In this document: positions 2,830 through 16,705 of the stretch, one piece after another | How the letters are laid out: the number at the start of each line of letters is the position of its first letter | How positions within the stretch are numbered: the first letter of the stretch is position 1 | Source: a virus | Reading direction: 5' to 3' (one strand) | Virus record (IMG/VR): IMGVR_UViG_3300007538_000246 | Location: 1 to 20,508 of that record | DNA length: 20,508 nt | Notes under the pieces: model-generated | Databases searched by the model: none | Seen by the model: only the letters and a program-made list of their open reading frames with translations | What the model was told of the DNA's origin: nothing | Position numbers and translations under genes: made by a program

Positions 2830-3617
2830 TACGAAGTCAATTCCGCCGAAAACATATACAGAGCCTGATGGTCCACAGGTCCAGCGCCGATAGACTGGAC
2901 GTTATAGTTCGCGGTAATACCTGTGCTATTCAAAGTAACGGATGTCGCGTTTACGCTTGTCACACCAGAAAATGTAACAGATGGGGTGGCGCGCATTGTG
3001 ACAGGGTGCGGGTAATGCCTAGCGTCCACCCAACCGGAATCGCCAGCATCCCATCGCGACCTTAGATTAATCTGCTGATAGAACCTTTGGCACAATGCCA
3101 ATTCTTGCCCGAGTGACCGCAATTCAAACGGCGTTGCGGTTATGCCCGCCTCTAGCTGAACATCGGTAAAAGTGCCGGACGAAAACACTACAACGACATT
3201 TGCATTTGCCGTCAGCGTAAAGGTTTCGCCCTTTGCCCGCGCAGTCCCGTTGACCGTAACTGTAGCGTCACCATCCCAGTTCAAAACATAAGAGCCGCCG
3301 ACGATATTCGCGCCCTCAATTACCTGCCCGACGCCACCTGTTGCGGTCATAACGCGCCGTGCATTGGTGCCCGTAAATGAAAGGCTTTCGCCTGACGTGA
3401 CCACAAACCACCGATCAAGCGAAAATTGATTTGCCCCTGTTGTTGCTGTGCCGCTGACATATCCGCGCTGATTAATACGGCCAGAGCCGTTGATGATCAG
3501 ATTGCGACCGGACAATGATCTAGCAGGAATGCGCCTACTATTGCTATCAACAACGGCATATAGCAGATCATCTGCGTCAAGGATTGTTGCTAACGGAAGA
3601 TCGGTAATTTTAGGCAT
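2829..3617 (-). CDS. Tail fibre / receptor-binding protein with carbohydrate-binding-type domain
   Basis: A 262-residue protein. Residues ~37-52 read 'GRNLIINGSGRINQRG' followed later by 'FSLDRW', the hallmark of phage fibre proteins with a jelly-roll carbohydrate-binding fold. The domain ends near residue 165 with 'VQLEAGITATPFELRSLGQE', also typical, followed by 'LALCQRFYQ'. A C-terminal beta-rich region rich in Thr, Val and Asn follows. The N-terminal ~35 residues ('ITDLPLATILDADDLLYAVV') look like a virion-attachment segment. A GGAG ribosome-binding sequence lies 8-9 bases before the ATG. It sits between a Dit-like gene and the hub-like gene, an uncommon place for a fibre gene. It likely recognises host glycans; this is inferred from the family. 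Confidence 0.85.
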   Translation of the reverse strand: MPKITDLPLATILDADDLLYAVVDSNSRRIPARSLSGRNLIINGSGRINQRGYVSGTATTGANQFSLDRWFVVTSGESLSFTGTNARRVMTATGGVGQVIEGANIVGGSYVLNWDGDATVTVNGTARAKGETFTLTANANVVVVFSSGTFTDVQLEAGITATPFELRSLGQELALCQRFYQQINLRSRWDAGDSGWVDARHYPHPVTMRATPSVTFSGVTSVNATSVTLNSTGITANYNVQSIGAGPVDHQALYMFSAELTS

Positions 3618-3621
3618 GTGA

Positions 3622-4410
3622 TCACTCCAAGTATCCAGTGATTGAAAGCGAAACCTGCATCAAATTCTTGATGCCCATGTTGCTAGGCGTCGGGGTGTCG
3701 TCCGTCCAGCACCATGCCACGCTTTCCGGCATCTTCGAAGGGTTTTGGATCAGCCCGAAAGGCGTCTGAGGCAGGGACAACGAGAACGGCTCAAAGTTGG
3801 CGCGATACCAATCCGCTGTGAGATGCGCCCAGTTCATCTGCGTGCGCCGCGCCTGCCGCTGGATCGTCCGCCCAAGCCACTGCCCGGTTTCGCTCATGCT
3901 GTGCCGCGTCTCGACGATCCGGTTGAGGCCTATCGGTTCAACCCCGCCAAAAACGGCCTGCTGCATTTGCAGCGCCTTGCCCGCGCGGATGATGCCGACT
4001 GTAGCCGTTTCAGGAGCGCCAGAGATGGACAGCCGAACCTCGCGCACGCTATATGCAACGCCCGCGTCGTTGAACATCACGGCGATGGTGGAGTTGTCAG
4101 TCGGGGTCACGGTTGCCCGCGTTGTGAAGGCACCGCCAACTGTAGCCGCTGTTTGCACAAGGATCGTCGCCCCGGCCAGCGAATGCGCCGCGATGAAAAC
4201 CGTATCCACATCAGCGTCAGCCGCCGTCTGGATCGTCCAATCACCAGATGTCGCACCGAGTTCCCACCGCTGAAAAGTATAGTCATTCGCCGCCAGCGCA
4301 CCGCCTGTGCCGTCTGCCGTGATGGTCCCGGTGATCGGCGCATATAAGATCCGCGCATGGGTCAGTGGCTCATTGCTGCTAACGGCGTATCCGCTTGTCG
4401 ATAAGGTCAT
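3622..4410 (-). CDS. Tail protein directly after the tape measure, possibly distal tail (Dit-like)
   Basis: A 262-residue protein lying immediately after the tape measure gene, with an ATGA overlap (4407-4410). In siphophages this slot usually encodes the distal tail protein that joins tube to tip. The N-terminal half is Thr/Ala/Val-rich and looks like beta sandwich; the C-terminal half has a helical basic segment 'LGRTIQRQARRTQMNW' and then 'WYRANFEPFSLSLPQTPF'. The domain order is plausible for a Dit-like or tip protein, but I do not recognise a named family from sequence alone. The following fibre gene starts after a 4-base gap. The role is inferred mainly from gene order. Confidence 0.7.
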   Translation of the reverse strand: MTLSTSGYAVSSNEPLTHARILYAPITGTITADGTGGALAANDYTFQRWELGATSGDWTIQTAADADVDTVFIAAHSLAGATILVQTAATVGGAFTTRATVTPTDNSTIAVMFNDAGVAYSVREVRLSISGAPETATVGIIRAGKALQMQQAVFGGVEPIGLNRIVETRHSMSETGQWLGRTIQRQARRTQMNWAHLTADWYRANFEPFSLSLPQTPFGLIQNPSKMPESVAWCWTDDTPTPSNMGIKNLMQVSLSITGYLE

Positions 4411-6473
4411 GATACAGTCGCCCTGATCAGAGTTGAGCCGTCACGCTGCGATTGGTTGATTGCCCCGACAATTTGACGCACGAGACGATCAGAGATGCCG
4501 AAAGGATCATTTGTGACGCTGAAGTTGAGCGTCTGTGATGCCTGCGGGGCCGCTGCGGACGCTGGGGCTGCCGCCGCCGTTGCTGTTGCGCCACCAGTAG
4601 ATGCCACAGCACCGCCGCTCTTGTTGACGCCCTTGATGGCGCTGACAAACCCGATGCCCTTAGCAAGCACCGTAGCTGCGGCAGCGAGGTTTTGGGGGAA
4701 GGGCAGCTTCAACGCCTCAGCCGCACCCTGATATGCGCCGATCAGGGCTTGGGCTGCACCGAACACCTTGGCAACTTTCAGCGCCTTTTCATTCGTCTGG
4801 CCCATCGCATTGAGGATTTCAGCGCCAGCGCCCAGAACGGTGTGAAGATCAGCCGCCGCGCCCAGTTCGCGAATGCGTGACAGGCGGTCTTGATGTTCCT
4901 TGGCAAGCCGTTCAATCGCCGCCTGCTTTCCACCAATAGCTGCCAACTCCGCATCGGTTGCGCTGTCAATCAACGCCTGCCCCTCGGCATACCATTGCGC
5001 CACGGTTTCCCGCTCGGTCATCAGCCCTTCCATGAGGGTTTCAAGGCGGGTTGCAAGCTGCTCGCGCAATGCCTCATTCGGATCAACGCCGCCACCGCCA
5101 GCATCGTCGCCCGTGATAAACTCTCCACCCATGCTCGCAAGCAAGGCGTCAGTGGCCGTTGGGTTGACTGTGCCGCGTCCGCTTGATGTGTATCTGCGCG
5201 GCGGGATCAGACTTCCTTCCGGCGTCAATCCTGTTCCTGTTGTAACTCCGGGCCTGCCACCGGGCAATTCCTGCCTAAGTTGAGTTGCAAATCCAAGCGC
5301 AAGCGCAACGGCTTGCCCAAGGCGCGTCACTTGGCTAGTCACGCCAGATATGTCGATGCCTTTGAAGTCTGCAAACTGCGCAATCAGGGCTGCAACACGG
5401 CCCTGCAATTGCTCCATTTTGGCGCGGAAATCTTCGGCGTCGATTTCTCCATCTTCCAGTTCTTGACGGGCTTTTTTCATTTCACCGATAAAGCCGCGAA
5501 GAACCTCGGATGCCCCAATCTCGCCAATGTCGTCAAGCCGATCTGCAAAGTTCGTAAGCCGACCTTCAGCCAATATGGTCTGCTGGTTCAGGGCGTTCAT
5601 GCCATTGCTGACGCCCTTAACCTCGCTTTGCAAATCTGCAAGGCTGCCACCAGCTTTGATGATCTCATTAACCAGATCCGCACCCAAAACCTGACGGGCT
5701 TTTTCAATGCTGCCGAAAAACTCCTCAAGTGTAATTCGTGCGCCGACGACCTTGGCGGCAAACTCAACAAGCCCGTTTGCTACCCGTTCAATTGACGGCG
5801 CAACTGCCCCAGCCATTTGATTGCCAAGACCAGTAAAAACCATTCCCAGACGCCCGACAGCATCATTGGCCCGCTCGACGCCTTGCGCAACATCCTGCGC
5901 CACCGCGATGCCAAAACGCTGTTGGAACGCCGCTGCATTCGCTGCCGCCGCGCCATATCCATTGAGCATGTTGATTGCATCACGGCCAGAGCGTCCAAAA
6001 ACCTCCATCGCCATCGCGGTCTTTTCCGCCGGGTCTGTAATCTTGTTCAGCGCATCAGCGATCTTGGCAAACTGCGCATCAGGCTCCAGCCCCTGCAAGT
6101 CACGCATTGACAGGCCAAGCCGCCCGAAGGCATCAACCTGTGCCTGTGTGCCTTGTCCCAGTTCCACGATGTTGCGCTGCATCAGGCCAAGCATCGATGA
6201 CAGCTTGCCCGTCTCAACGCCAGCTTCACCAGCCACAAGGCTCATCTTCTGAAACGCGGCTGTGGTCAAGCCAAGGCTGCGCGCCTGCTTGGTCAGAACG
6301 TCGATGTTGGCAAGGCTTTCTTTGGTCAGCGCCACCATAGCAACGCCAACAGCGGCAACACCAGCAGCACCCACCTTGGCAAACTTGGCAATTGCTGCCT
6401 GCGCCCCGGTCAGCCCTTTAGTAAGGCCATCCGTTTCGGCTCCGATCTTGACTGAAAGAGGCGGCAAAGCCAT
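4407..6473 (-). CDS. Tail tape measure protein
   Basis: A 688-residue protein with the TP901-type tape-measure core: the start 'LPPLSVKIGAETDGLTKGL', a hydrophobic Ala/Val segment at about residues 33-50, then 'ARSLGLTTAAFQKMSLVAGE' and 'MEVFGRSGRDAINMLNGYG'. Long helical stretches follow, with charged heptad-like regions near residues 260-365 and 480-545, a Gly-rich linker, and an Ala-rich stretch near the C-terminus. Tape-measure length sets tail length in siphophages, so this size suggests a tail of roughly 100 nm by the usual proportionality of about 0.15 nm per residue. The start overlaps the stop of the frameshifted tail chaperone (TAATG at 6471-6475), which fits translational coupling. 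No peptidoglycan hydrolase motif is seen. Confidence 0.95.
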   Translation of the reverse strand: MALPPLSVKIGAETDGLTKGLTGAQAAIAKFAKVGAAGVAAVGVAMVALTKESLANIDVLTKQARSLGLTTAAFQKMSLVAGEAGVETGKLSSMLGLMQRNIVELGQGTQAQVDAFGRLGLSMRDLQGLEPDAQFAKIADALNKITDPAEKTAMAMEVFGRSGRDAINMLNGYGAAAANAAAFQQRFGIAVAQDVAQGVERANDAVGRLGMVFTGLGNQMAGAVAPSIERVANGLVEFAAKVVGARITLEEFFGSIEKARQVLGADLVNEIIKAGGSLADLQSEVKGVSNGMNALNQQTILAEGRLTNFADRLDDIGEIGASEVLRGFIGEMKKARQELEDGEIDAEDFRAKMEQLQGRVAALIAQFADFKGIDISGVTSQVTRLGQAVALALGFATQLRQELPGGRPGVTTGTGLTPEGSLIPPRRYTSSGRGTVNPTATDALLASMGGEFITGDDAGGGGVDPNEALREQLATRLETLMEGLMTERETVAQWYAEGQALIDSATDAELAAIGGKQAAIERLAKEHQDRLSRIRELGAAADLHTVLGAGAEILNAMGQTNEKALKVAKVFGAAQALIGAYQGAAEALKLPFPQNLAAAATVLAKGIGFVSAIKGVNKSGGAVASTGGATATAAAAPASAAAPQASQTLNFSVTNDPFGISDRLVRQIVGAINQSQRDGSTLIRATVS

Positions 6474-7050: not shown

Positions 7051-7440
7051 TTAAACCGCCGTGAACGTGACAGTGCCGCTCGACTGGATGTTTGCCGTGA
7101 ACGTCACCGCGTCCGCCTGCTCGCCGCCCAGCGTCATAGCCGAGAGGAACCAGTCGCCAGTGAAAGAACCGATGCCGTCAATCTCAACGGTATATGCTGC
7201 CAGAAGGCCAGACGCCGCACCCATTGCCACAGCGATGATCGTGCTATCGGTTAGCACGCCCTCAACGTCAGCGTCCACCGAACGAACGCCGACATCTGCC
7301 AGCATCGTGCGCCAGCCCGCGTCGTCCTTGTCAGTGATGTCAACAGGCTCGTTGTTGATCGACAGATTGTCAGTCCGAGCGCCTGCGATAGCGGTCAAAC
7401 CCTTTTTGATGCGCATCTTTCTGCCGGATTGTGCAGCCAT
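7051..7440 (-). CDS. Major tail tube protein, short paralogue (TP901-1-type)
   Basis: A 129-residue protein with the compact beta-rich pattern of siphophage tail-tube subunits, starting 'SGRKMRIKKG' and ending 'VTFTANIQSSGTVTFTAV'. It shares about 60% identity by eye with the N-terminal half of the neighbouring upstream gene, including the 17-residue block 'EPVDITDKDDAGWRTML' and 'FLSAMT...GEQAD...VTFTAN'. It lacks the C-terminal Ig-like domain of that paralogue. An AGGAGA ribosome-binding sequence lies 6 bases before the ATG. It is followed after 10 bases by the tail chaperone. It may be the main tube subunit, a minor ring, or an assembly variant; sequence alone cannot tell which. Confidence 0.88.
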   Translation of the reverse strand: MAAQSGRKMRIKKGLTAIAGARTDNLSINNEPVDITDKDDAGWRTMLADVGVRSVDADVEGVLTDSTIIAVAMGAASGLLAAYTVEIDGIGSFTGDWFLSAMTLGGEQADAVTFTANIQSSGTVTFTAV

Positions 7441-7454
7441 TTTAGTCTCCTAAT

Positions 7455-8135
7455 TTACGGGGCCACAGGGCCGACGATGTTGCTGAATGCAACGGTTGAT
7501 CCACGAGAGTTTGTTGCCGTCATACGGGCGCGCACATACTTGCCAGCCTGCCCGACAGCGAGAACGCGGGTTGCCCCTGTTGCGCCGCTGATATCCGCCC
7601 ACGTCGGGGCATTCGGATCTGAAAGCGTGCTTTCCTGCCACTGGGTGGCGTAGGTGATTGTCGCATCGCCCGCCCATGTGCCAGTCGTCCGCGTAAGCGT
7701 CTGGCCCACTGTGGTCGTGCCAGTAACGGCAGGCAGAACGGTGTTATACGGGGCCAGCGAGACGGTCAAAACGCCGCTGCTTTCAAAGTTGGCAGTAAAC
7801 GTCACGGTGTCTGCTTGCTCAGCGCCGAATGTCATGGCCGAGAGGAAGAAGTCGCCCGTGATGTTGGCGATCCCGTCCAGCAGGCAAGCCCCGCTGTCGA
7901 TCAGGAGATTGCCTGCCGCCATTGCTTGAGCAATCGTTGTGCTGCCTTTAAGCACGCCCTCAACATCGCCAGAGACGGAACGAACGCTCACGTCACCAAG
8001 CATGGTGCGCCATCCAGCGTCATCCTTGTCGGTGATATCAACAGGCTCTGCATTGATAGCAAGATTGTCCACGCGAGCACCAACGATGGCCACGCTGTCT
8101 CTGCTGATCCGCATTTTTCGGCCAGAAATAGCCAT
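7455..8135 (-). CDS. Major tail tube protein with C-terminal Ig-like domain
   Basis: A 226-residue protein. Residues 1-~128 are the tail-tube domain, closely matching the next gene. From about residue 133 a bacterial Ig-like domain follows: 'TTTVGQTLTRTTGTWAGDAT', 'QWQES', 'WADISGATGATRVL' and 'YVRARMTATNSRGSTVAFS', the familiar pattern of surface Ig repeats. In lambda gpV and SPP1 gp17.1* similar C-terminal domains decorate the tail outside and are thought to touch the cell surface. A promoter-like sequence lies in the 38-base upstream gap. The ribosome-binding sequence is AAGGGTG. The fold is confident; which of the two paralogues builds most of the tube is unknown. Confidence 0.9.
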   Translation of the reverse strand: MAISGRKMRISRDSVAIVGARVDNLAINAEPVDITDKDDAGWRTMLGDVSVRSVSGDVEGVLKGSTTIAQAMAAGNLLIDSGACLLDGIANITGDFFLSAMTFGAEQADTVTFTANFESSGVLTVSLAPYNTVLPAVTGTTTVGQTLTRTTGTWAGDATITYATQWQESTLSDPNAPTWADISGATGATRVLAVGQAGKYVRARMTATNSRGSTVAFSNIVGPVAP

Positions 8136-11428: not shown

Positions 11429-12730
11429 TTAGGATGCCGAGAACTCGATCAGCTTGATCGCTTCGAAGTTCACAACGTCGCCGCCCACACGCTTGGTGGT
11501 GTAGAACTCAACATACGGCTTTGCCGAATACGGATCGCGCAGCGTGCGGATGCCCACACGGTCAACGATCTGATAGGCAGAGCGCATGTCGCCAACGGCG
11601 ATGGACAGCGAACCCGTTGCCGGATCAGGCATGTCCTCAAACGCAGCTACAGGGTAGCCCAGCAGCGTTGCAGGCTGACCAGCCGCAATGCCCGGCGACC
11701 ACAGATAGGCACCATCGCTGTCTTTCAGCTTACGGGCCAGCTTCGTCGTGGCGCGGTTCATGAACCACGTCGCGTTTGCACGATACTGCGCCTTCAGGCC
11801 ATACAGAGCGTCGATCAGAGCATCGCCACCGCTGGGGGCAGAAGCGAATGCGCCGTTTGCCCCAGTGTTGATGCGCTCAATCGTGCCCGGCAGGGTGGTG
11901 CCGTCAGCATAGGACAGGAAGCCACGCGGCTTGTTGACGCCATTGCCTGCAACGAATGCAGCGGCCTCATCACGCGCGAACTTCTCTGCCACTTTCTGCG
12001 CCAGCCACGTTTCCAGATTGATCTCGGCGTCGTCGAGGATCTTCTGGGTGGCTTTCGGCTTGGCATACAGTTCGTGGACGGGAATGCGCCACTTGCCAAG
12101 CTGCGGGGTGCCAGTTTCCGAGCGCGCGTCAGTTTCGCCAACCCAACCCGAAGATGCTTCTTCAAGGTCAAACAGGCCTTCCAGCGCGTCGGTGCTGATG
12201 ACTTGGATGGACGCATAGGCGCGCATCGGGGAAGTCTCAAACACTTTGGTGACGATCTGGCCCGACATGTCCGGGTGAACGACATAGCCGCCATCGGGAT
12301 CGTTGCCGACCGACAGTGCTTTCTTTTCGTCAGCGCCGATGATCTCGTCACCCTTGCGCAGGAACGAATTGAATGCCGACTTGTAGCCGTCCAGATCAGA
12401 TGCGCCGAACTGCTCAACACGGGTGCCGCGCGAGCGTGCTACCATGTTTGCCCAGTGCATCGCCTTGGCGTCGAGGTTGATCTCGTTGCCGTTCTCATCG
12501 GTCACAGTGCGGTTCTGGCGCTTGATCGACAGCTCGAACTGGTCGAGGCGTGACTGCTTGGCGTCCATTTCCTTTTCGATCTTGGCGATCTTTTCGTCCA
12601 GCAGCGGGTCTGCCGCGCCTTTCGATTCGATCTCCTTGATGCGCTGATCGTTGGCTTCTTTGAAAGCCTCAAAACCGCGCTTCACGCCGTCAACGGCCTC
12701 GGCCAGTTGTTTTGCGTCAAAGTCACTCAT
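11429..12730 (-). CDS. Major capsid protein, HK97-type with N-terminal scaffold domain
   Basis: A 433-residue protein. Residues 1-~75 form a charged coiled-coil scaffold ('delta') domain, with 'LDEKIAKIEKEMDAKQSRLD' in its heptad region. The mature capsid follows: 'KKALSVGNDPDGGYVVHPD' at about 136-154 is the family signature, then the E-loop region and 'SMRLYR'-like spine equivalents, 'TWFMNRATTKLARKLKDSDG' at about 320, and 'VAAFEDMPDPATGSLSIAVG' towards the end. The scaffold domain is normally removed by the prohead protease encoded just upstream, with an ATGA overlap at 12727-12730. No covalent cross-link lysine can be judged here. Confident. Confidence 0.96.
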   Translation of the reverse strand: MSDFDAKQLAEAVDGVKRGFEAFKEANDQRIKEIESKGAADPLLDEKIAKIEKEMDAKQSRLDQFELSIKRQNRTVTDENGNEINLDAKAMHWANMVARSRGTRVEQFGASDLDGYKSAFNSFLRKGDEIIGADEKKALSVGNDPDGGYVVHPDMSGQIVTKVFETSPMRAYASIQVISTDALEGLFDLEEASSGWVGETDARSETGTPQLGKWRIPVHELYAKPKATQKILDDAEINLETWLAQKVAEKFARDEAAAFVAGNGVNKPRGFLSYADGTTLPGTIERINTGANGAFASAPSGGDALIDALYGLKAQYRANATWFMNRATTKLARKLKDSDGAYLWSPGIAAGQPATLLGYPVAAFEDMPDPATGSLSIAVGDMRSAYQIVDRVGIRTLRDPYSAKPYVEFYTTKRVGGDVVNFEAIKLIEFSAS

Positions 12731-13833
12731 TGGAAAATCTCCTTCAGCTGAGTGAGTTGCAGATGAAGGGCTTTTAAGCCCTCGCTATCAACCTGCTCGG
12801 CTACATCGTCCCGATGAGCGGCAAGGCCGTTGAAGCCGTCAGCCGCAATGGCCTTGGCTTCGCTCTGAGTGAAGCCCACGTCCCGTAAGGCTTTCTCAAA
12901 TTCTCGAATTGTCGTGATAGATTTGACAGCCGTTATCTTGGCGTCAGGCAGCATCGGGAATGTCACGAGCGATACCTCGAACAGATCCACCTCCATCAAC
13001 TTGCGGATGCGCCCTGCGCCCTCTGGCACGGCTTCAATGGTGCGGTATCCAATCGACATGCTGTCAATCGCGCCTGCGCGCATCAGGGCCATAGCTTCGG
13101 CTCCCTTCTGCACGTCCTTCAGGATGCGCCCCTTGACGTAAAGGCCGCGCTCATCCTCACGGATTTCATCCCATACACCGATGGGCTGTGCCATGTCGTG
13201 CTGCCAGAGCATCTTGACCTTGCGGCCCGATCCGATGGACTTGGCAAACGCGCCGCGCTCTACAACATCCATTCCCTGATCAACGATGCCGAAGACAGAG
13301 GCATAGCCCTCGAAAACGCCATCCTGATCCGGCTCTTTCTTGATCTCGAAACCGACTGCCTTGTGTTCGACTTGGCTCATGTGCTTTGCATCCTCTTGCC
13401 TGCCGATGCGCTCGGCCCACGTCCTGCCCGGATCACCGCCCCAAAGATCCCACGCGATGCGCCATGCAGTAGGCCCACCATCAGGTTCTTTGTCGTTGTA
13501 ATGATCAGAGCGGTTTGTGCCGTGACGGGCGAAGAAAGACCGCATCCGCGCCACGGTTTCGTCAGATAGGTTTGCCCGGTTGGCAATGTCACGCGCCCGC
13601 GCAACGCCCACCTCAGTGCCGCCACGCCCGTATTCCTTGCGCCATTCCAAAGCCCGCGCGGCAACCTTGGCCATCTCGTCAGTCGGCTTGTAGCCCTCGG
13701 CCTTCTCGCCCCAGAGCGAGTTACAGACTGCGAAACGCTGATCAGCATCGGGAAAATCCGCAACTGCCTCTGCATCGCTCATGCAGCGGTCAAGGAACTC
13801 ATCGCGGGTCTCGTCTGCGCTTGGTGTCGGCAT
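12727..13833 (-). CDS. Prohead protease, HK97-type, with additional N-terminal domain
   Basis: A 368-residue protein. The HK97-type protease begins near residue 155 ('EHKAVGFEIKKE'), with catalytic-type His in 'LWQHD' (about H212) and Ser in 'DSMSIGY' (about S260), followed by 'EVDLFEVSLVTFPMLPDA'. Residues ~1-146 form a separate domain: 'RDEFLDRCMSDAEAVADFPD', 'VCNSLW', then 'ALEWRKEYGRGGTEVGVARA' and 'GPTAWRIAWDLWGGDPGRTW', a module I know from several phage head-maturation proteins. An internal ATG at 13380 with AGAGGA upstream could also make a protease-only form. I use ATG 13833; a TTG at 13905 would run into the terminator and is unlikely. It cleaves the capsid scaffold domain. Confidence 0.93.
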   Translation of the reverse strand: MPTPSADETRDEFLDRCMSDAEAVADFPDADQRFAVCNSLWGEKAEGYKPTDEMAKVAARALEWRKEYGRGGTEVGVARARDIANRANLSDETVARMRSFFARHGTNRSDHYNDKEPDGGPTAWRIAWDLWGGDPGRTWAERIGRQEDAKHMSQVEHKAVGFEIKKEPDQDGVFEGYASVFGIVDQGMDVVERGAFAKSIGSGRKVKMLWQHDMAQPIGVWDEIREDERGLYVKGRILKDVQKGAEAMALMRAGAIDSMSIGYRTIEAVPEGAGRIRKLMEVDLFEVSLVTFPMLPDAKITAVKSITTIREFEKALRDVGFTQSEAKAIAADGFNGLAAHRDDVAEQVDSEGLKALHLQLTQLKEIFQ

Positions 13834-13842
13834 GTTGCCTCT

Positions 13843-13878
13843 GCAAATTTGCAAACAGATATAGCACGGTTTGCAAAC
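13843..13878 (-). promoter_or_regulatory. Candidate promoter/operator before the protease gene (paired TTTGCAAAC)
   Basis: Two TTTGCAAAC copies (plus-strand 13848-13856 and 13870-13878) lie 22 bp apart, the second inside the palindrome GTTTGCAAAC and the first inside the 12-bp palindrome TGCAAATTTGCA (13843-13854). Between them the minus strand has GTGCTATATCT, an extended -10-like element also found before the portal gene. The -10 lies 24 bases upstream of the protease ATG. The -35 (TTGTGG) is weak, so a bound activator or repressor is possible. Sites of the form TTTGCAAA are known targets of short-chain acyl-CoA regulators (PrpR/PccR type), though the spacing differs. Confidence 0.5.
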
Positions 13879-13903
13879 TGCCACAACAAGGCGCATGAGC
13901 AAC

Positions 13904-13928
13904 AAAAAAACCGCCCCCGAAGGAGCGG
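13904..13928 (-). terminator. Intrinsic terminator after the HNH gene
   Basis: On the minus strand CCGCTCC, TTCG, GGGGCGG make a 7-bp stem (one G-U pair) with a UUCG tetraloop, followed at once by seven Ts. It begins 8 bases after the HNH stop codon. This is a textbook rho-independent terminator, lying inside the head gene cluster. Confidence 0.9.
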
Positions 13929-13936
13929 ATTAAGGA

Positions 13937-14644
13937 TTATTCAAGCCACGCCCAAGCGTGGCCTAGCTTTATCCTTGAAACCATTGTCGGGGTAATTCCC
14001 CAAGCCTTTGCTATCTCAACGCCGCTGACCTTTCCGATCATTTTTCTGATCTGCCTAACATCGTCTTCCGTCAGCTTGTTTGTGTGGATCGCAGTGCCTC
14101 TGCGCAAAGTGCCATGTATCAGCTTATCGGCTTGGTTTTCTTTTGGCGTCTTCCATGCAAGATGACGCGGGTTCATGCACCCTTCATGGCCCTTTCCGCA
14201 AGTGTGAGCCGCGTGATAGCTTTGATCTGGCGGATTGCCATGCGCCAAGATGCACATGTATCGTGATGCTGCATAATTCTTTCCGCTCACTTGCACTGTT
14301 CCGCGACCCTGAGAAGCCGTTGAAAAAGGCCACTTTAAGCAATTATTACCCTGATATAATACGTTTTTTTCTATCCACCGTATTCCTCTGCGATATCTGT
14401 CAGATGTAGCAAGTGCGTCCCCATTGTTCTTCAGTCGCAGATAATGCTTCTGGCAAAATCCCTTGCTGGAATGGGGCTTATCGCACCCTTCAACTGTGCA
14501 TATTTTGTGTTTGCTTTGCCTGTCAGTCAAGCTAACCGTTGCATCGCCGTGCTTTAGCCATCTCATATAATGCATAGCGCAATATCCCCTTGCGCATCCT
14601 TTTCCTTTAGACGGCCTATCGCATCCATCAGCAGAACAAATCAT
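13937..14644 (-). CDS. HNH endonuclease with two zinc motifs and C-terminal HTH (homing-type)
   Basis: A 235-residue protein inserted between the minor head protein and the protease. The first ~75 residues hold two Cys/His units of the type C-x4-C-xn-C-x2-H (C3, C8, C22, H25 and C49, C54, C64, H67), each ending 'HY.R....G(D/N)'-like. An HNH core follows at about 144-161: 'HAAHTCGKGHEGCMNPRHL', with conserved His, Asn and His plus two zinc-type Cys. Residues ~190-225 form a helix-turn-helix ('VSGVEIAKAWGITPTMVSRI'). The start at 14644 has GGAGG 5 bases upstream; an ATG at 14656 overlaps that site and is rejected. It has its own promoter-like region and terminator and visibly AT-richer flanks. 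A free-standing homing endonuclease is likely. Confidence 0.9.
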   Translation of the reverse strand: MICSADGCDRPSKGKGCARGYCAMHYMRWLKHGDATVSLTDRQSKHKICTVEGCDKPHSSKGFCQKHYLRLKNNGDALATSDRYRRGIRWIEKNVLYQGNNCLKWPFSTASQGRGTVQVSGKNYAASRYMCILAHGNPPDQSYHAAHTCGKGHEGCMNPRHLAWKTPKENQADKLIHGTLRRGTAIHTNKLTEDDVRQIRKMIGKVSGVEIAKAWGITPTMVSRIKLGHAWAWLE

Positions 14645-14649
14645 TTCAA

Positions 14650-14654
14650 CCTCC
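14650..14654 (-). promoter_or_regulatory. Ribosome binding site deciding the HNH start
   Basis: GGAGG 5 bases before the ATG at 14644. The alternative ATG at 14656 overlaps this sequence, so 14644 is favoured. Confidence 0.65.
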
Positions 14655-14669
14655 ATGTGTGAAGGTCAT

Positions 14670-14698
14670 ATAATTTCAGCTTTTTATTTTATTGTCAA
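14670..14698 (-). promoter_or_regulatory. Promoter for the HNH gene
   Basis: On the minus strand a perfect TTGACA (14698-14693) is followed after 17 bases by AATTAT (14675-14670, 4/6 match). The spacer is almost pure A and T, unlike the surrounding GC-rich DNA. The stop codon of the minor head protein is inside the -35. The predicted start lies about 20 bases before the HNH start codon. Confidence 0.6.
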
Positions 14699-15459
14699 TC
14701 CGATGCAACGATGTGGCTCACACCGCAGCGGCAGTTGATAATGTTGCCCGCGCTGCCCGCTGGATCGCCCGGATACATCAGCGCCTCGCCGCCGACGTCA
14801 AATGCCTGATCCATGTCAACGATCTGCCCATTAGCCTGATCGTGATCTGGCCGGGTGCGCTCATCCTCGGCTGCAACCCACTCTTTGCGCAGCTTTATCC
14901 CCGTGGCTCTGGCCGCACCATCCGCGCCGTAGTTTGCCGCGCCATGCGTCTCGGTCCGGGCTATCAACGCGCCGCGATGCCGTGAAATGATGCCGACATT
15001 TCCCGCGATCCGTTTAGCGATTTCGTCAACGCCTTCGCCTGCCTGCTGGCCTCTGGTGATCTGATTGACGATCTGCTGACGGGTTGTTTCCGCAACGCTG
15101 GTAATCCTGCGGCGGATCATCTCAAGCCCGATGTAGTCCAGCGCCAGCCGTCGAAAAAACTCCATGAATGATTTGCGCTCAAGGATCAGGCCCATATGCT
15201 TGCCCTGTCCGACGATGCGTTCACCGAATGCCTCGATGCCAACCTCGGCCATCTGCCGATAGATGTCAGCGATACGGCGCTCATGGTCATCAGGCAATGC
15301 AGGGGCGCGCCTTGTGGCTCTGTAGGCGGCAAGCATGGCTTCACTGGCTCTGCGTATCTCTGCCGCGAGGATGCGCCTGAAACGGCGCTCCATCATCGCC
15401 AAGAGCCGTTGTTGCCTGCGTTGCTCTTTCTGCGGGCTGCTGTCACCGATCCGCTTCAT
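14695..15459 (-). CDS. Minor head protein, Mu gpF-like (SPP1 gp7 family)
   Basis: A 254-residue protein. The N-terminal ~130 residues are helical and basic. The C-terminal MuF domain is clear: 'RTETHGAAN' (about 168-176), 'EWVAAEDERTRPDHDQANGQ' (about 193-212), and 'PGDPAGSAGNIINCRC' (about 230-245). MuF proteins bind the portal and are packaged in few copies in the capsid; they act in assembly or DNA delivery. I use ATG 15459 because a longer reading begins with TTG at 15468. It overlaps the portal gene by 17 bases. The HNH unit begins directly at its stop codon. Confidence 0.94.
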   Translation of the reverse strand: MKRIGDSSPQKEQRRQQRLLAMMERRFRRILAAEIRRASEAMLAAYRATRRAPALPDDHERRIADIYRQMAEVGIEAFGERIVGQGKHMGLILERKSFMEFFRRLALDYIGLEMIRRRITSVAETTRQQIVNQITRGQQAGEGVDEIAKRIAGNVGIISRHRGALIARTETHGAANYGADGAARATGIKLRKEWVAAEDERTRPDHDQANGQIVDMDQAFDVGGEALMYPGDPAGSAGNIINCRCGVSHIVASD

Positions 15460-16705
15460 AGCCCGCAATCCGCGCCATCGCTTTCATGTCAACAGCTTCA
15501 GGCGCGCTGATCGGCTCGGACGCATCAGAAAGCGGCACCTGCCCCAGCCCGACCAAGAGAACGTCTCCGCCTTGGATTGGCTCATAGCCTTTCATGGCGC
15601 GGCGCTCGTTGATCGTCAGATCGGTTGCACGGTCAGCCATACCCCAAAGCGTGTTGCGCTTATCAGCGATGGCCGGGATCTGGTCCAGATCAGGCTTGAG
15701 ATAGACGCCCTGCGGCTCGCCCAGCCATGCGTTCCAATCCTCGCCGATCATGTCCAGAAGCGGCATGACCGTATCTTCCCAGAATGCCAGCCGGGCCTCT
15801 TGGTAATTTGAATAGGTGTTGTCGCCGGGAATGCCGAGAAGCTGGGGTGGCACGCCAAGGGCAAGGCACACATCCCGCGCGGATGAATACTTTGTCTCAA
15901 TGATTCCCATGTCAGCAGGGGAAAGGCCCATCTGCCGCCAATCAAGCCCGCCCTCCAGCAACAGCGGACGTCCACCATTCTGCGCGCCTTGATACTGGCT
16001 TTCCATCTGGGCTTTGAGGCGATTGAATTGATCGTCACTGAGGTCTTTATCGCCTGTCACAACAAGCGCCCCGGAAGGCCGCGCCGAGTTCTGTAGCAAT
16101 GCCTGCATCCACGTCATCGACAGATTGTGCTGATCAATCGCATATGCGCCCGCTTCAATGGGCGACATGCCATACCAATCATCCAGCGGGTTGAACATCC
16201 GCAGATGCCGAACAAGCGAAGAAAGATCAGGATCAACAGGGAAGCGCACCTCGCGCCCGCCGACCTTGTAGATATATTCCTTTGGGAAGCCGTTGGCCCC
16301 CGGCACGATTTTCATGCGATCCGGGCGAAGCTGATACAGTTCCCGCACCTGACCGTTTGCCTCAACTGCTTCCTCATATCCGTTCCCTGCGATCATCAGG
16401 AAGCCGATCTTGGCGCGCATATACTGGGGGCCGGATTGCATCGGGTTGGGATTGTGCAGAAGATCCAGCAACGGATGCTCAATCAATTCTTGCTCGCTGC
16501 GCCAGACAGTCCACTTCACAGATGCCACAGCGTCAGCGATTTTATTGATAGCCTGATATGCCACGACGTTTCGGCGATATCCCTCATCTGCGAACGCAGC
16601 ATAATCGCGATTTGACCAAGCTGCCTGCCCCGGATTGATAACCATTGCAGCGCCTGTTGCGCTTTCTTTGGTTTCGGGCCGTCTGAATAGGCGCGGAAAT
16701 TTCAT
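15443..16705 (-). CDS. Portal protein, HK97-type
   Basis: A 420-residue protein of the HK97-type portal family, normal in length. Family marks in order: 'RNVVAYQAINKIADAVASVK' (about 45-64), 'HPLLDLLHNPNP' (77-88), 'GNGYEEA' (107-113), 'GMSPIEAGAYAIDQHN' (179-194), 'LLQNSARPSGAL' (203-214), 'GVPPQLLGIPGDNTYSNYQEA' around 284-304. Twelve copies form the ring through which DNA enters and leaves. GAGGG lies 6 bases before the ATG, and an extended -10-like element 24 bases before it. It follows the large terminase gene after 51 bases. Confidence 0.96.
   Translation of the reverse strand: MKFPRLFRRPETKESATGAAMVINPGQAAWSNRDYAAFADEGYRRNVVAYQAINKIADAVASVKWTVWRSEQELIEHPLLDLLHNPNPMQSGPQYMRAKIGFLMIAGNGYEEAVEANGQVRELYQLRPDRMKIVPGANGFPKEYIYKVGGREVRFPVDPDLSSLVRHLRMFNPLDDWYGMSPIEAGAYAIDQHNLSMTWMQALLQNSARPSGALVVTGDKDLSDDQFNRLKAQMESQYQGAQNGGRPLLLEGGLDWRQMGLSPADMGIIETKYSSARDVCLALGVPPQLLGIPGDNTYSNYQEARLAFWEDTVMPLLDMIGEDWNAWLGEPQGVYLKPDLDQIPAIADKRNTLWGMADRATDLTINERRAMKGYEPIQGGDVLLVGLGQVPLSDASEPISAPEAVDMKAMARIAGYEADR

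Follow-up and report, generated by a model that had tools for sequence, protein, structure and literature searches.

Introduction

The described systems closest to the locus analysed here are endonuclease genes of T4 and Aeh1. T4 mobE lies between nrdA and nrdB and leaves nrdB with a promoter of its own, the ribosome binding sites of T4 I-TevI, T4 segB, and Aeh1 mobE are hidden in hairpins, and seven free-standing endonuclease genes of T4 are promoter-less (PMC2988022). Two further points of reference are the moron, an autonomous transcription unit lying between phage genes (PMC6316719), and, at the level of the protein, I-PpoI with its His-Cys box.

The window, by which we mean the whole stretch of DNA analysed, is a 20.5-kb IMG/VR contig with a minus-strand series of genes for a methyltransferase, the small and large terminase subunits, portal, MuF, an HNH endonuclease, protease, and major capsid (the small terminase subunit is labelled from its position and has no Pfam match). 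We consider it very probable that positions 14694-13904 are a free-standing homing endonuclease gene of the T4 mob/seg type, which follows immediately upon the stop codon of MuF in a head operon of siphovirus-like type. To judge from sequence comparison, this is a kind of unit that is already known, for which the evidence on the insertion point is unusually clean.

The locus resembles that of T4 mobE in having an intergenic HNH gene between co-functional genes, a promoter-like element of the downstream gene between the endonuclease gene and itself, and a diverged flank that would fit co-conversion, and its predicted ribosome binding site (RBS) hairpin has a counterpart in Aeh1 mobE. It differs from T4 mobE in that the host genes are those of a siphovirus-like head operon rather than of nucleotide metabolism, the insert lies at the MuF stop codon and contains a terminator, and homing is predicted. 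With T4 I-TevI it has in common an RBS within a hairpin and a promoter start, here a predicted one, in the 5′ arm of that hairpin; the gene is not in an intron, however, its promoter-like element is sigma70-like instead of a T4 late promoter, and there is no sequence relation. It shares a promoter-like element, an open reading frame, and a terminator with morons, but the gene is an endonuclease gene with signs of self-mobility.

Gene order and relatives

The MuF (minor head protein) gene occupies positions 14695-15468 on the minus strand (PF04233, E 1.1e-18; phrog_2468, head morphogenesis), and the insertion lies at its stop codon. The first gene downstream of the insert encodes a prohead protease of the Peptidase_S78 type with an N-terminal accessory domain (12727-13833, minus strand, ATG at 13833; PF04586, E 4.4e-34), followed by the major capsid gene (11429-12730, minus strand; PF05065, E 9e-83). 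No near match was found when a phage collection was searched with the window, and a scan of genome contigs gave distant relatives only. Scans of IMG/VR proteins yielded about 170 loci in which MuF is followed by a protease, and removal of near-copies left 69 non-redundant MuF-protease gaps, 50 of which are no longer than 200 nt.

Empty and occupied sites

The earlier note had described the HNH gene as inserted, proposing a search for insertion-free relatives and taking its presence in all relatives as evidence to the contrary. Most relatives lack the gene, and only three of the 69 loci have it: the window phage, L213, and L226. The most informative comparison is that of L213 with the empty locus L218, in which the MuF bodies are 92.5% (about 93%) identical and the downstream sequences 98-100% identical. 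L213 has 802 bp that L218 lacks, and alignments made from each side place the extra DNA immediately after the MuF stop codon, from the very next base up to the point where L218 goes on with CCCCCTTTGCC. This segment includes both the HNH gene and a terminator, and the palindromic promoter-like element ahead of the protease gene is identical in the two phages and untouched by the insert. The extra DNA likewise starts at the MuF stop codon in the pairs L194/L226, where L226 has the HNH gene, and L157/L162, although these pairs are less similar than L218 and L213; the insert of L162, relative to the empty L157, contains a LAGLIDADG-like ORF at the same point (PF14528, under the cut-off). The contigs nearly identical to the window all carry the HNH gene, and its own empty state is therefore read from relatives with MuF identities of 69% or less. 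On these alignments, insertion of the HNH gene between MuF and protease is real, and the pair with the terminator inside the insert, together with recurrence of the gene in diverged phages, bears out the earlier note on this point.

The last 60 nt of MuF are only 0.70 identical between L213 and L218, as against 0.925 for the body of the gene. A drop this large occurs in none of 237 other pairs, which are not independent of one another and whose tails are, on average, better conserved than their bodies; the next-largest is in L004/L005, a pair whose gap lengths also differ. In this one pair the divergence at the MuF end fits the signature expected of co-conversion from a donor.

A phylogeny of MuF places the three HNH-bearing phages apart from one another, with HNH-less sisters (L149/150, L218, and L216/219), and its starred branches force three changes. 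This scatter and the L218/L213 pair show a single precise site that is either occupied or empty in close relatives, as is typical of homing endonuclease genes. The HNH proteins of the window, L213, and L226 nonetheless form a clade (96*) within a seven-member clade (99*), all of whose members share the strand of MuF and follow it at a distance of 38-215 nt, even though some of the adjacent MuF proteins share only 35-40% identity with that of the window. In the wider HNH family the upstream neighbour varies, being MuF in 14 of 76 cases and coat, portal, or other genes elsewhere, and the association with MuF is therefore a trait of this clade. The best reading of these patterns is that the clade is specialised for the MuF 3′ end and has repeatedly occupied the site. 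The suggestion that the gene is a recent arrival thus holds relative to the sister phages, but not for the clade as a whole. Comparison of the loci shows the insertion and, in a sister phage, its exact edge, along with the patchy distribution, the site-specialised clade, and the flank divergence.

The HNH gene and its product

The open reading frame of the HNH (His-Me finger) endonuclease extends over 13937-14656 on the minus strand, with a TAA stop at 13939-13937, and matches phrog_59, phrog_5351, and phrog_1872 with E values of about 1e-15. The GGAGG at 14654-14650, which the earlier note had taken as the gene's own ribosome binding site, is present, but translation from the first ATG (14656) would place it within the ORF; because of this the ATG at 14644, five bases past the GGAGG, is the likely start codon, giving a product of 235 amino acids. 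In composition the gene stands apart from its neighbours (48% GC versus 55-60%), with a GC3 of 48% and the lowest-ranking codon usage of the 16 genes.

The predicted protein has two N-terminal Cys/His units, a His-Me finger, and a C-terminal helix-turn-helix (HTH), and the finger residues H151, C153, C160, H165, and N174 are invariant among six relatives. The gene is intergenic and outside any intron or intein, and its nuclease family matches and intact active-site residues agree with a free-standing homing endonuclease. The top four places in a Foldseek search are taken by I-PpoI (E 0.02-0.05, probability 0.95-0.98), a weak match obtained with a model of pTM 0.45, and a VIA-align comparison with 1a74_A gave a Z of 4.8 over 95 residues at 5.7 Å, no better than the values for unrelated entries. 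The Pfam family PF05551 (zf-His_Me_endon) scores 19.4 bits against a gathering cut-off of 27, and since the I-PpoI match is weak and this score is under the cut-off we do not claim membership; a sequence search of the PDB with the HNH protein gave nothing useful. The HNH protein does share the H-x-C...C...H...N arrangement of the active-site loop with I-PpoI and the His-Cys box, from which it differs in being encoded by a phage gene that is not within an intron, and in having extra Cys/His units and the C-terminal HTH.

Putative start and stop signals

The perfect TTGACA, 17-base spacer, and AATTAT reported earlier are indeed present on the minus strand (14670-14698), with TTGACA at 14698-14693, AATTAT at 14675-14670, and a TG before the -10. 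The -35 shares bases with the MuF stop codon (TGA, 14697-14695), again as reported. This is the sole match of at least 10/12 on either strand of the window; between 1.0 and 2.6% of composition-preserving shuffles of the AT-rich gap reach the same quality, and the element is therefore suggestive of an HNH promoter rather than proof of one. Start signals with 17-nt spacing that begin in the last MuF codons are found in the window, L213, and L226 (shuffle p values of 0.012, 0.065, and 0.042 respectively), and no promoter match was found in L229, L228, and L227.

The UUCG terminator with seven Ts is located as described, at 13928-13904 on the minus strand and 8 bases past the HNH stop codon; it consists of CCGCTCC-UUCG-GGGGCGG (13928-13911) followed by T7 (13910-13904). 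The region folds with -15.5 kcal/mol (z -3.0), and one of 200 shuffles does as well. Terminator-like matches as such are not above chance, with seven in an 8-kb stretch where 7.8 are expected, and this one stands out by its GC stem (7 bp), UUCG loop, T7, and position. The inserted stretch of L226 has no GC-rich terminator, and an AT-rich one lies just past its edge. Both the promoter-like element and the terminator of the HNH unit are predicted to function as such.

Two features of the region go beyond the earlier note, namely an RBS hairpin at 14666-14649 and a second promoter-like element at 13886-13848. The hairpin (14649-14666, minus strand; ACCUUCA-CACA-UGGAGGU, 7 bp) sequesters the Shine-Dalgarno sequence, with predicted folding of -6.6 kcal/mol when the 5′ arm is included and 0 when it is not. 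The predicted transcription start, at about 14667-14660, falls within this 5′ arm, and in folding predictions the hairpin is kept in a transcript starting at 14666 and lost in one starting at 14660; the start site could alternatively lie just ahead of the hairpin and leave it whole. RBS hairpins are frequent in leaders of the HNH family (44 of 70, with 14 expected) and are formed by 24 different stems. The window HNH gene may be under RBS-hairpin control like that of I-TevI.

A structured leader in the wider HNH family

Most members of the HNH family have an 82-nt leader with covarying helices (for example L229 3034-3113, L248 3930-4012, L374 2439-2521, and some 50 more), and the one of L374 belongs to Rhizobium phage RHph_N3_2. 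Changes on both sides of a pair occur in 140 cells compared with 43.5 in shuffles, a count that leans towards structure insofar as the alignment was fitted to it; shifting the pairing partner abolishes the signal. An RNA model of the leader finds 55 matches in 45 HNH loci and none in 66 control loci (703 kb). At least 10 matches are outside the seed, and most of these are upstream of HNH genes; two lie upstream of another family with a Cys-rich RFGRL/CRCDCG/SCGCL pattern (L296 6433 and L272 2569). No Rfam family reaches its gathering score against the leader, the best weak match being RF00043 (21 bits, E 0.07). The window HNH gene is missing the first leader hairpin and retains the RBS hairpin alone.

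We would put about equal weight for and against a broader proposal: that the HNH family is controlled by a new leader of about 82 nt, comprising a hairpin with covarying pairs, a conserved CUAACCA, and a covarying hairpin with the Shine-Dalgarno sequence before the start codon, that this leader is also used by a second nuclease-like gene family, and that the window clade came to specialise on the stop codon of MuF, most of its leader being replaced by a promoter and the RBS hairpin. If several phage nuclease genes share a structured leader, translational control as known from T4 would also operate in phages of other bacteria.

Promoter-like elements ahead of the protease gene

Most relatives have a promoter-like element directly upstream of the protease gene, and simple pattern rules assign 50 of the 69 gaps to one of three types: TTGTGA-17-TGATATATT, whose -35 lies on the MuF stop codon, a GTTATGTTATAACATAAC palindrome, and a TGnTATA -10 flanked by TTTGCAAA repeats. 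The window has the third type at 13848-13886 on the minus strand, with a -35-like TTGTGG (13886-13881), TTTGCAAA at 13877-13870, a -10 of TATATC (13863-13858), and a second TTTGCAAA at 13855-13848; this exact flanked pattern does not occur in any of 5000 shuffles of the gap. In IMG/VR a stricter form has 50 non-redundant occurrences; of these, 29 are upstream of a protease gene, and most of the others precede genes that by eye resemble major tail or tail-completion genes. Elements with TTTGCAAA repeats around the -10 were also noted in L008, L087, L306, L312, and other siphovirus-like contigs. PrpR binds TTTGCAAA (PMC3420887). The resemblance of the motif to ScfR/PrpR sites provides a lead towards host ScfR-type regulators; among the records searched for a phage-coded regulator, no HTH_3 match exceeded the cut-off and an M78 peptidase was absent.

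Terminators are found in none of the 50 short gaps but in seven of the 19 long ones, some of these lacking the HNH gene, which indicates that diverse inserts tend to bring a terminator ahead of the older promoter-like element. The presence of the element in most relatives without the insert points to a downstream promoter that is older than the HNH insertion and not newly needed. The assumption that a head operon is normally continuous therefore fails here even without the insert. Similarly, the argument that a terminator within the operon demands readthrough, antitermination, or a new promoter needs correction, since the protease gene has an older promoter-like element of its own; readthrough or antitermination as the sole route to protease and capsid expression is not needed. 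That the capsid genes have such an element helps to explain why the insertion is tolerable.

A model for homing, and alternatives

On the preferred reading, the start signal, gene, and terminator would have moved together as a unit to the point behind the MuF stop codon. The most likely target of the nuclease is the conserved MuF 3′ end, or its vicinity, in genomes that lack the HNH gene; after a cut or nick there, repair from an HNH-bearing genome would transfer to the recipient both the gene and the part of MuF next to it. The promoter, with its -35 in the last MuF bases, is predicted to initiate within the 5′ arm of the RBS hairpin. On transcripts that enter from MuF the hairpin would form and mask the Shine-Dalgarno sequence, and hence the gene's own transcript alone would be translated well, by the logic of T4 I-TevI and mobE. 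The terminator would shield the protease-capsid unit, which would itself start at its own older promoter.

A moron proper, kept as an autonomous unit for its benefit to the phage or lysogen (by cutting competitors, for example) and with no homing, would also account for a complete unit with promoter-like element and terminator, and the gap does take other cargo, seemingly unrelated to homing, behind terminators (272 amino acids in L196, and 252 and 221 in L226). We nevertheless think it improbable, as one HNH clade recurs at the exact point in diverged phages, the flank divergence fits gene conversion, and the architecture is that of an endonuclease; the two readings overlap, in that a homing gene can be a moron by structure. 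The location in a head module with terminase and portal nearby might instead recall the packaging-associated HNH proteins of the HK97 gp74 type, required for terminase function. This is scarcely credible for a gene that lies between MuF and protease and not beside terminase, encodes 235 amino acids that include additional Cys/His units and an HTH, and is of outlying composition, and we have rejected it because nearly all relatives that have this packaging and head module lack the gene.

The signals, rather than the homing, are at issue in a further alternative, in which the homing gene has no working signals of its own and is read from the MuF transcript, the TTGACA being a chance occurrence in an AT-rich gap. 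Elements of this quality are not rare in shuffled gaps (1-6%), the lack of a promoter match in L229, L228, and L227 agrees with such an arrangement, and we also count the promoter-less T4 genes in its favour; on the other hand, the three closest HNH genes each have a 17-nt-spaced element starting from the MuF end, and the RBS hairpin would hide the Shine-Dalgarno sequence on just those read-in transcripts. We give this alternative a modest chance of being correct. In the case of a free-standing homing endonuclease with its own signals, uncultivated siphovirus-like phages would offer a testable homing system in their head operons, for which both a natural pair of empty and occupied sites and a predicted MuF 3′ target are available. 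It would also suggest how an essential late operon may take up selfish genes and yet stay active, namely through entry at a junction whose downstream unit has a promoter-like element to itself, and through the terminator that the genes bring with them.

Other features of the loci

Several other arrangements were seen in these loci. The MuF-protease gap of L172 contains an antisense capsid-family ORF (PF05065, 215 amino acids; 5018-5665, minus strand), and ARAGORN did not find a suspected tRNA in the gap of L007. An HNH_3 gene lies antisense inside the protease gene in L075 (5457-5894, minus strand) and L077 (1142-1609, minus strand), the sense frame being open throughout, similar to the ShiLan insertion with a hidden HNH in a phage methylase, as outlined in PMC11855218. 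L059 has an intein-like insert in MuF (3283-4971) ahead of an NCRC motif, with an antisense ORF of 258 amino acids and a Pfam intein score under the cut-off. The N-terminal domain of the protease (residues ~46-153 in the window) stands as an ORF by itself, located between portal and MuF, in L067-L073, L082, L212, and L217, and is therefore a mobile module. Finally, two adjoining minus-strand genes of the window, 7051-7440 and 7455-8135, have N-termini that are clearly similar by eye (SGRKMRI...DITDKDDAGWRTML) and are apparently duplicated tail genes, the second having an extra C-terminal domain.
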